Notes under the pieces: generated by a model
Seen by the model: the letters and a program-made list of their open reading frames with translations, nothing else
Database searches by the model: none
What the model was told of the DNA's origin: nothing
Source: an uncultured Latescibacterota bacterium
Lineage (GTDB): Bacteria; Latescibacterota; UBA2968
Assembly (NCBI GenBank): GCA_951812755.1
Contig: OX638329.1
Span: 1,101,339 to 1,165,338, forward strand
Direction of reading: 5' to 3'
Length of the DNA stretch: 64,000 nucleotides
Translations under genes and position numbers: made by a program
Shown: piece after piece, positions 22,914-26,617 of the stretch
How positions within the stretch are numbered: position 1 is the stretch's first letter
Layout of the letters: each line of letters starts with the position of its first letter

Positions 22914-23021
22914 AGACGGACAGGGTAGAACAGGTGTCGGGATGAGCGTTACAAGATGGGTAACGAGTTAGTCAAAATAGATGTTAGCCCATAACTATGG
23001 ATTTTACAGGAAATGACAGAT

Positions 23022-23750
23022 ATGAAACGATATTTAATCGCAATACTTTTGATGACTGCAATGCTATGGTGCGATTTAGTTGCTCAGGCGCAAGAAAAAC
23101 AGGAGGAGTCGCCGCCGGCTTTTGTCGATGAGGATGGCGATGGTATCGATGATCGCGTGACCTTCCGCCATCGTCTAAGTCAGCGGTCTCGGGGAAGTGC
23201 GCTGTTGTGGGTGCTTTCGGCGCCATTGACGGAAGCGCAGCGCATGGCTCTGCAGGCGAAGATCAATGAATTACTCGAGGGAGGGGCAGAACTCCGTGAG
23301 ATTAGAAGGGCTATTTTTGTCGAACTCGAGGATTTTGGCGTAGATTTAACAGAAACATTTTTGACGCGATTAAGTGCGGTGTTGACAGAAGATCAGATGG
23401 CTGCACTTCGCAAAAAGGCCGAGGTTCTAAAAGCGAATGGCGCAACCTATCAAAGGATTTACAGAGAGATACGCGACGAGTTGGCTGTTATGGGGATTAA
23501 TTGGGAGGGGCAGAGACCCGATTACTCCAGTTCTCAGTTGACAGAAGACCAGATGTCTGATCTCCAAAAAAAAATCGACAAACTAATTGCCGATGGTGCA
23601 TCTCGTGTTGAAATTCAAAAAGCCATTCATGCAGAGTTGGAAGAGATAACGCGGCGCAATAGACGCAGGAGTCGCGCTGCGGGTGACCGCGGTGGTCAGC
23701 CTATGTCATCTGAGCGAAAAAAACAAAGAAGCGGGAAGCAGGGAAACTGA
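23022..23750 (+). CDS. Secreted protein with three LTxxQ repeats (Spy/CpxP-like)
   Basis: About 242 residues with a signal peptide ending near AQAQ (residues 20-24). An acidic DEDGDGIDDR segment, like a calcium-binding loop, follows. Three helical repeats of 45-60 residues begin LTEAQRMAL, LTEDQMAAL and LTEDQMSDL and each continue with a KKxxxL helix and an IRDEL-like helix. LTxxQ is the hallmark of the periplasmic chaperones Spy and CpxP, which adjust Cpx-type two-component systems. The protein sits just after such a system. The C-terminus is very basic (RRNRRRSRAA). Function by analogy: periplasmic chaperone or modulator of the adjacent kinase. Three repeats in one chain is unusual. Confidence 0.7.
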   Translation: MKRYLIAILLMTAMLWCDLVAQAQEKQEESPPAFVDEDGDGIDDRVTFRHRLSQRSRGSALLWVLSAPLTEAQRMALQAKINELLEGGAELREIRRAIFVELEDFGVDLTETFLTRLSAVLTEDQMAALRKKAEVLKANGATYQRIYREIRDELAVMGINWEGQRPDYSSSQLTEDQMSDLQKKIDKLIADGASRVEIQKAIHAELEEITRRNRRRSRAAGDRGGQPMSSERKKQRSGKQGN

Positions 23751-23751
23751 A

Positions 23752-26127
23752 TCAATCCGAGAAGGGAAAAAGCGTTTCAAATATTTTGTCCGTTCGGTTT
23801 CGCCAACTCGCCCAACCTGCACCATCGTTTACTTCGCCTCCGGCAAAGGCATAATTTCTTTTTTTGAGAAGTTGCGCAAACGATGCCGTGCTCTTGCCCA
23901 GATCATTTCCCTCCATTGGGCTTCGCAAGTCGTATTTTCCCCAGTCCAGATAAATATCTATGGGCATTTGTTTTGTTGCCTGAAAGATCAGGTCTGCATC
24001 TTTGGCTTCTGCGGTCTGATCCCAGGATAGGGATTGTATGCCCAGTTTGCCAAATATGTCGGGATGTGTAAAGGTGGCGTAAAATGCCATAAATCCACCG
24101 TAAATTGTCCCGATATTTGCCCGGTTTTCGCGGTTTTTGATCGTGCGATATGTCCGGTCGATGTAGGGCACGATCTCTTCTGTAAAGATCTGATTGTACG
24201 CATCGCGGTTTGCCCCCACGTACTCTGCGTATCCACCTCTGAAGAGAGATGGGACAAATACCGCGATTACGGGGCGCACGCGTTCGCCGATGATATTGTC
24301 CAGCGAGATGTTCATCTTTCCCAGTGACCACTGCCGGCGCGCAGCGTGAACATAAGCAACGGGGTATTGTTCATCGTTTTTATCGTAACCCGCTGGGAGG
24401 TAGATTTCCAATTTTCGCTGTCCTTCAATTTTCTCACTTTCAAAATGTATGGTATCAATTTTGCCGTGAATACCATCTCGTCGCGCTTTGAGATGGTCGG
24501 GAGCACGCCAGCGCGGCATGCCGAAATAGGATGCGCGGCCAAAGAAGAGGGTTCGAATCTGTCGCGGGTTGAGCGGGTCGGGGATGGATCGCTGTAAGTC
24601 CAGTGTGTAGCGATAGGTGATGCGGGCGTCGGGTTCGAGTTGTGCAGTGGAATAGAAGAAGTCCGTTCCCTCAACTCGGTGCATGGGGTGGTCATATCGC
24701 CGCCCTACGTGATCGCCGGTTATGGTTACGTCTTCCGCTTTGCCGCGATATACAAAATGCACGAGATTCTCGCCTTCGAGGATTGGAAAGGTTTTTTGTT
24801 TTGCCATGAATTGATCAATCCGCGTTTTCTTGTCTGCGGATTGTTTCACTTCTTCGACAAATTGTGCAAAGTGCGAGTTTGGTGCGATGTCATCTGTGTC
24901 TGATTCTGCCACTTGGGTTTCTGGTACGACTTCGATACAGGCGATTTCCGACATGCTGCGCGCATAAAACCTGCTATTGGCCAGGGTGGCGTGTGACCAA
25001 ACAATGTCGTTGAAGAGTTTCAAACGGGCTGTTTCGCGGTATCCCTCACCCGAGGCCTGCGCGACGGCGAGGTTGCCTTCTTTGGTGATGATGACGAGGT
25101 GGTTATCTATGATGATGGGGAAGCCATCTCCCGGCTCGCGCGATCGCCATAAGCGTTCACCGGTGTTTGCATCGATGCAGGTGAGGATGCGACCGTTATA
25201 ACCGAACAGAAGTCCTGCGTTAAAAACCGCATAGCTGTACGTCCCCCGAATGTGGCGCGTCCGCCAGATTTCCTCTGCGGCAAAGGTTTCGCTATCGGCT
25301 CTCAAGCCGACCAGCATGCCGCCGTTTTTCACAAAATATCGCCCTTCACCAATCTCGACGGGATGCCCGCTGGTATGCCCCGCGCCGGTCTGCCCGCGAT
25401 GTGCAAATTGCCACAGGATTTCACCGGTTTCGGGCGATAAGCCTGCGAGATATTTGTTGCCGAAGAAGACGAGGTGTTTGCGGTTGTCAAAGGCGAATAG
25501 GCCCGGGGATTGATAGTTGACCGAGTCGCTAAATGCCGACCAGATCAAATCGCCGGATGCGGGATTATAAGCGGAGACCGCATGTGTTCCCCCCGTTTGG
25601 ACGATCAGGCGATTGTCGTGTAAAATTGGGGATGATGTAAAGCCCCAAAATGGTACGGTGGCACGATGGGCTGCGACGAGATCTATGGTCCAGAGTTCTT
25701 TTCCTGTATTCGCATCGAGCGCGAACAATTTTCCCCGGGGACCTAATGCGATGACTTTGTCCTGTGTCAATATCGGCGTTGATAGGGGACCGCTCTGCGA
25801 GCCGTAGTGACCGAGATATGCAGCGCCGATTTTGTATTTCCATCGTTCTGATCCATCCTGGGCATTGAGGCCGATTACATAGTCAAAGGTCTCGTCGGAA
25901 TACATGGTCACAGCGAGGTCGCCGAGAACCGAGATGGGTGAGTAGCCGGGGCCGAGGGGCTTTTTCCAGACGATTTTCAGCGCGTAGGGTTGGTCAGAGG
26001 GGAAGATGCCCGCGTCGTTGACTCTGAAGTCTCTATTGGGTCCGCCCCAGTTCGTCCAGTCCGTTTTCGCGTCTGCTGGTTGGCAGAAGAGGAAAATTAG
26101 AAGAAGTATTTTTGCGCGACTGTTCAT
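23752..26127 (-). CDS. Secreted PQQ-like beta-propeller fused to an inactive esterase-D domain
   Basis: A 791-residue exported protein with a signal peptide (residues 1-20). Residues 22-420 contain PQQ/pyrrolo-quinoline-type propeller blades (GLNAQDGSERWKYKI, ALDANTGKELWTIDL, IDANTGERLWRS). Residues 430-540 look like the immunoglobulin-like domain that precedes ferric-enterobactin-type esterases. Residues 560-790 match esterase D (KLEIYLPAGYD, FGKLGIQSLSW, YLDWGKYD). The nucleophile motif expected as G-x-S-x-G-G reads GTIYGG, and the catalytic-His motif expected near GHxW reads GAGW. Serine and histidine are therefore both replaced, so hydrolysis is unlikely. It is probably a binding or scaffold protein. 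It ends two bases from the end of the LTxxQ gene, convergently. Confidence 0.85.
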   Translation of the reverse strand: MNSRAKILLLIFLFCQPADAKTDWTNWGGPNRDFRVNDAGIFPSDQPYALKIVWKKPLGPGYSPISVLGDLAVTMYSDETFDYVIGLNAQDGSERWKYKIGAAYLGHYGSQSGPLSTPILTQDKVIALGPRGKLFALDANTGKELWTIDLVAAHRATVPFWGFTSSPILHDNRLIVQTGGTHAVSAYNPASGDLIWSAFSDSVNYQSPGLFAFDNRKHLVFFGNKYLAGLSPETGEILWQFAHRGQTGAGHTSGHPVEIGEGRYFVKNGGMLVGLRADSETFAAEEIWRTRHIRGTYSYAVFNAGLLFGYNGRILTCIDANTGERLWRSREPGDGFPIIIDNHLVIITKEGNLAVAQASGEGYRETARLKLFNDIVWSHATLANSRFYARSMSEIACIEVVPETQVAESDTDDIAPNSHFAQFVEEVKQSADKKTRIDQFMAKQKTFPILEGENLVHFVYRGKAEDVTITGDHVGRRYDHPMHRVEGTDFFYSTAQLEPDARITYRYTLDLQRSIPDPLNPRQIRTLFFGRASYFGMPRWRAPDHLKARRDGIHGKIDTIHFESEKIEGQRKLEIYLPAGYDKNDEQYPVAYVHAARRQWSLGKMNISLDNIIGERVRPVIAVFVPSLFRGGYAEYVGANRDAYNQIFTEEIVPYIDRTYRTIKNRENRANIGTIYGGFMAFYATFTHPDIFGKLGIQSLSWDQTAEAKDADLIFQATKQMPIDIYLDWGKYDLRSPMEGNDLGKSTASFAQLLKKRNYAFAGGEVNDGAGWASWRNRTDKIFETLFPFSD

Positions 26128-26170: not shown

Positions 26171-26617
26171 TTAGAGGTTCTGTAAATCATCTAAATCTTT
26201 ATGTTTTCCACTGGCCTGCTTGTTCTTTTTTAAGTGTTCCAAACTGATAATATGAACTTCCACATCATCTATCATATCAATAATCCGTTCTGAATAACAG
26301 TTTTCAAAACGAACACCCGATATTGTTGTCAAAAGCTCAATTCTCAGGGGGGGAACACCCATTCGGACAATTTGCTCCGCTTTCAAAAAGAGATTGACTG
26401 ATAATTGTGGTACGTTAAAGCCAAATTCCCTCAAGACGGCAACCAGCTTTTCGGCGTTATTTTGATGGACTGCCACCCATAAATCCATATCAGCGGTTGC
26501 ACGCGGATACCCATGATACCCAACGGCATAGCCACCGACAAGTAGATATTCAACGCGATGTGAGTTGAGTAACTTCAAGAACTCTTTGAAGTCGTGAGGT
26601 ATTTGGATCGTAGCCAT
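26171..26617 (-). CDS. MNT/AbiEii-type nucleotidyltransferase
   Basis: A 148-residue protein with a nucleotidyltransferase fold. YLLVGGYAVGYHGYPRATAD followed by MDLWV gives the GG pattern and the two metal-binding acids (D-x-D). Small stand-alone nucleotidyltransferases of this kind are often the toxin or antitoxin of a two-gene module that adds nucleotides to tRNA or to a partner. Its start overlaps the upstream small gene by 68 bases in another frame, showing translational coupling. Toxin activity is inference. It lies between the pseudo-esterase gene and the small partner genes. Confidence 0.8.
   Translation of the reverse strand: MATIQIPHDFKEFLKLLNSHRVEYLLVGGYAVGYHGYPRATADMDLWVAVHQNNAEKLVAVLREFGFNVPQLSVNLFLKAEQIVRMGVPPLRIELLTTISGVRFENCYSERIIDMIDDVEVHIISLEHLKKNKQASGKHKDLDDLQNL

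Follow-up and report, generated by a model that had tools for sequence, protein, structure and literature searches.

The fusion gene and its surroundings

The window, a stretch of 64,000 nucleotides, carries a propeller/pseudo-esterase fusion gene on its minus strand (23752..26127), a strand that the original observation left unstated. The reading frame begins with an ATG at 26127, its stop codon ends at 23752, and there is no internal stop in its 791 codons, so the frame is intact as originally claimed. The hosts are Latescibacterota bacteria, presumably of a sponge type.

The 791-aa product begins with a signal-peptide-like N-terminus (aa 1–21; 26065..26127, minus strand) that was read by eye from the sequence and ends in PADA-K. 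Across all orthologues in the alignment this segment is variable in sequence yet hydrophobic. The protein is probably exported. Residues 22–400 (24928..26064, minus strand) form a BamB/PQQ_2-like β-propeller, as assigned from Pfam, from the strands of the AlphaFold model and from Foldseek matches to BamB. The Pfam match to PQQ_2 (PF13360) is strong (1.9e-30) and spans aa 83–327. An E-set/CBM48-like domain of the enterochelin-esterase N-terminal type occupies aa 451–555 (24463..24777, minus strand). It gave a weak Pfam match to Enterochelin_N (PF11806, aa 456–508) and aligns with the CBM48 portion of the CBM48-CE1 structures. The remaining residues, aa 556–791 (23755..24462, minus strand), make up a PF00756 (CE1/Fes-like) α/β hydrolase domain that appears to be catalytically dead, as identified by Pfam, AlphaFold and Foldseek. 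Its match to the Esterase profile (PF00756; 1.5e-16, aa 564–778) scored 61.4 bits against a curated cut-off of 22, which places the domain in this superfamily by homology.

Directly upstream of the fusion gene, most genus members carry, on the same strand, a gene of the MoaB type and one for a xylose-isomerase-like TIM-barrel protein. In the window, the fusion gene is separated from MoaB by a DUF2204-like nucleotidyltransferase ORF (26171-26617), for which only L013/L040 among the compared genus loci keep a 28-aa match beside the fusion. At L039:2607-3532 the match to the upstream sugar-isomerase-like gene is split into two separate pieces. Outside the genus this MoaB/TIM-barrel arrangement was not found; the context therefore gives little functional information, and a conserved operon was set aside as a clue to function. 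On the other side, a gene (23013-23750) encoding a protein of 245 aa, exported-looking and without a Pfam match, is convergent with the fusion gene and lies one base from it. It comes after a response regulator and a sensor kinase, and is absent from this position in L043, the genus member that diverges most.

Predicted fold and relatives of the two parts

In the full-length AlphaFold model (pLDDT 70.5) the propeller was confident and the C-terminal half weak, and the top PDB matches were BamB structures (Foldseek 1.9e-21). A model of the domain calculated from an alignment that included Ser-bearing relatives reached a pLDDT of 84.5 and a pTM of 0.84. Its best PDB matches were CBM48-CE1 feruloyl esterases (7b6b, 3.3e-27 in Foldseek), and Fes was matched at about 1e-20 with a TM-score of up to 0.74. 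The predicted structure is an intact α/β hydrolase matching both groups, in agreement with the original view that the fold has been kept.

The best sequence and fold matches are the CBM48-CE1 esterases acting as feruloyl or acetyl-xylan esterases (DmCE1B, 7b5v/7b6b; wtsFae1B, 6rzn/8bbp; Bacint_01033/01039). They show the same order of an E-set/CBM48 domain followed by a CE1 hydrolase and are about 22–25% identical to the fusion in the fold alignment. Active CE1 enzymes use a Ser-His-Asp/Glu triad (PMC8040265), and the CBM48-CE1 esterases have no propeller, whereas the fusion has other residues in place of the Ser, the His and the oxyanion Gly. Fes (2b20, 3c87, 3mga) likewise consists of an N-terminal E-set domain and a PF00756 hydrolase, but is an active siderophore esterase; the fusion lacks the Ser and the His and adds the signal-like N-terminus and the propeller. 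Esterase D (S-formylglutathione hydrolase) shares PF00756 and gave a weak profile match (3e4d, 3e-13), but is far more distant than CE1 and Fes. The label of an esterase-D domain was thus correct as to the PF00756 family, but within that family the domain is of the CBM48-CE1/Fes-like type and not a true esterase D.

The propeller has the fold and the PQQ_2 family in common with BamB (YfgL), the outer-membrane assembly lipoprotein, at only about 17% identity. No lipobox was seen in the fusion. A true BamB was rejected because the TIGR03300 equivalog score was 55.5 bits against a cut-off of 285.2, and a PQQ-dependent dehydrogenase because TIGR03075 gave 40.4 bits against a cut-off of 480.

PF00756 loci were retrieved from 64 genomes of the phylum and compared with the propeller profile. 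Within this set all matches fell on Ser-less sequences, and the Ser-bearing loci that were examined gave none. Plasmids searched by tblastn yielded no record that covered 80% of the fusion query. Features annotated under the listed matches were separate esterases or propellers, and the best match, from Haliovirga, has both Ser and His (GASAGA and AHNWSQW). A literature search in which subscription journals were thinly covered found no publication on a propeller–esterase fusion. What is new here is the propeller fusion and the lineage, since non-catalytic members of the superfamily are already known. Pseudo-enzymes are found across many enzyme families (PMC10211241), and α/β hydrolase-fold proteins without catalysis are well known, some such folds serving elsewhere as partner-binding modules (PMC5943944).

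One comparable case is MPT51 (FbpC1), a mycobacterial Ag85 paralogue of the PF00756 superfamily. It is described as non-catalytic (Wilson 2004, as cited in PMC8875947) and, going by that description, resembles the fusion in having lost activity and kept the fold. It differs in belonging to another branch and in having neither a propeller nor a CBM48-like domain.

Propeller-only paralogues occur several times per genome (L002-L008; L023-L026), with tandem sets of up to three in some genomes of family f4. One such paralogue in the same genome as the fusion (L006:1453-2871; contig 272554-273894) has two stops in the matched stretch.

The former catalytic centre and the age of the loss

Alignment with Ser-bearing esterases placed Ile675 (ATT; 24103..24105, minus strand) at the nucleophile position, within an elbow that reads IGTIYGG; the codon starts at 24105 and is read downwards. 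The catalytic His is replaced by Ala770 (GCA; 23818..23820, minus strand) in the C-terminal motif NDGAGWASW. In solved CE1 esterases these columns hold Ser and His (GLSMGG; TGGHTWANW), as they do in Ser-bearing esterases from the same phylum, which bears out the predicted changes of Ser to Ile and His to Ala. The original count of two lost catalytic residues out of three holds for this pair, and to it must be added a change that was not listed: the column of the oxyanion-hole Gly, assigned from PMC8040265, reads Ala595 (24343..24345, minus strand; VHAARR). The triad acid, Asp733 (GAC; 23929..23931, minus strand), is present in all intact fusion relatives; it sits in WGKYD and is invariant across the fusion family. 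The counterparts in DmCE1B are Ser542, His638 and Glu606; its likely oxyanion hole contains Gly450 (PMC8040265). Of the residues expected in an active CE1 or Fes enzyme, all 11 genus members lack the Ser, the His and the oxyanion Gly, and retain the acidic residue. As modelled, the domain keeps the fold and has lost its catalytic residues, and can be classed as a predicted pseudo-enzyme.

Judged from these alignments, the esterase domain is very likely no longer capable of serine-esterase chemistry. We consider it unlikely that the fusion is still an enzyme by means of migrated residues or other chemistry, for example Asp733 together with Glu765, Ser774 or Ser699. The family alignment shows no variation at any of these four residues, and a lineage-specific conserved stretch (WGKYDLRSPMEGND) lies in the loop that follows Asp733. 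Nevertheless, no Ser, Cys, Thr or Asp of the elbow is conserved family-wide in the alignment, and Ser699 lies in a QS stretch that is also present in Ser-bearing relatives. In the intact relatives the only invariant His of the aligned domain is His594 on the oxyanion strand, which is replaced in the copy of genome G012. Inspection of the fusion family's sequences revealed no other Ser-His-Asp set that is conserved.

Beyond the genus the distribution of the fusion is patchy. Gly stands at the nucleophile position in all three distant relatives in which it could be read. The copy of G028 (L020), a class-level relative, retains GHGW at the His motif; that of G025 (L021), also a class-level relative and missing its start at a contig end, has GFGW; and that of G012 (L022) has a GATGW-type sequence. 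For the copies of G013 and G014, the contig ends precede the esterase part. The G012 copy (L075:6289-8648, G012:C4), from a related genus, contains several stops and frameshifts, with intact neighbouring ORFs, and is accepted from its sequence as a decaying orthologue or pseudogene. Together with the patchy distribution, this decay indicates that some lineages can dispense with the role of the fusion.

When the esterase domain was placed in a tree with ten Ser-bearing esterases, the Ser-less sequences fell on one side of a branch (97/95) and these esterases on the other, several of the branches being long. Because Gly is found at the nucleophile in 3/3 distant relatives, the loss of Ser is old, and one recent base change is not supported. 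A single base does separate ATT from AGT, but this carries little information. The simplest reading is that Ser would have been lost once, before the lineages split or before the gene was transferred between them, and that His would have been lost later than Ser and in more than one way. In L020, where the His is retained, there may be weak or different chemistry.

Conservation in the genus and putative function

An intact orthologue was present in 11/11 genus genomes, that of the window included, the others being 75–94% identical; one of the 11 is located on a 5.66-Mb chromosome record. The Ile codon is ATT in all 11, and the Ala770 codon is GCA or GCG. A sequencing error was ruled out, since the Ile codon and the Ala are common to the 11 genomes. 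Selection was estimated by the pairwise Nei–Gojobori method, as the ratio of mean dN to mean dS. With dN/dS of about 0.13–0.18 over the esterase part (0.18 within ten close genomes and 0.13 relative to the divergent G008), the selection analysis suggested alongside the original prediction came out in its favour. The propeller gave 0.12 and 0.10, and the linker 0.21 and 0.26, in the same two comparisons. On these sequence measures the gene is under purifying selection and is not decaying within the genus, and the intact frames together with dN/dS rule out that the genus copies are pseudogenes.

In four loops of the former active site, 58/64 residues are invariant in the genus, compared with 105/172 elsewhere in the domain (Fisher p = 6e-6, a guide rather than a strict or blind test, as the loops were hand-picked from known triad positions and the sequences are related). 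By this count the former active-site loops are the best-conserved part of the esterase domain. This concentration, as opposed to conservation throughout the domain, argues against a structural spacer or dimerization module whose pocket has no role and whose conservation comes from folding only. We regard such a module as improbable, even though a DmCE1B dimer with contacts across the CBM48 and CE1 domains has been proposed (PMC8040265) and α/β hydrolase folds act as partner-binding modules elsewhere (PMC5943944). A decaying esterase passenger behind a propeller that alone matters, as might be suggested by the broken G012 copy among intact neighbours and by the many propeller-only paralogues in the same genomes, is very improbable and largely refuted by the similar dN/dS of the two parts, the frames intact in 11/11 genomes (including one that is only 75% identical) and the conserved pocket loops.

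The favored interpretation, which we consider probable, is that of an exported non-catalytic fusion in which the fold and the old substrate pocket are kept as a putative binding site. An ancestor would have gained an esterase of the CBM48-CE1/Fes-like type, fused to the end of a BamB-like propeller. The nucleophile would have been lost early, leaving the His free to change thereafter. With its lining of highly conserved loops, the pocket probably binds either a ligand resembling an ester, a glycan or a siderophore, or a protein partner, and the propeller may provide a platform for docking within the cell envelope. The binding role, the kind of ligand and the role of the propeller are all inferred, as is the original suggestion that the fold is retained for binding. 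More speculatively, the proteins could be an undescribed family of exported envelope receptors of Latescibacterota, with a dead pocket that captures but does not cleave an ester-linked glycan or a siderophore; this more specific possibility is held only tentatively.

Annotation pipelines would probably label the gene as an active esterase, which is very likely wrong at least in this genus, and such mislabeling bears on what these uncultured bacteria are predicted to degrade. Apart from the fusion, the genus lacks any strong PF00756 member (the remaining matches lie below about 28 bits), so the only such domain kept is the seemingly dead one. The family offers a natural series for the passage from esterase to binding protein, with Ile, Gly, Gly and Gly at the nucleophile and Ala, His, Phe and Thr at the position of the catalytic His.
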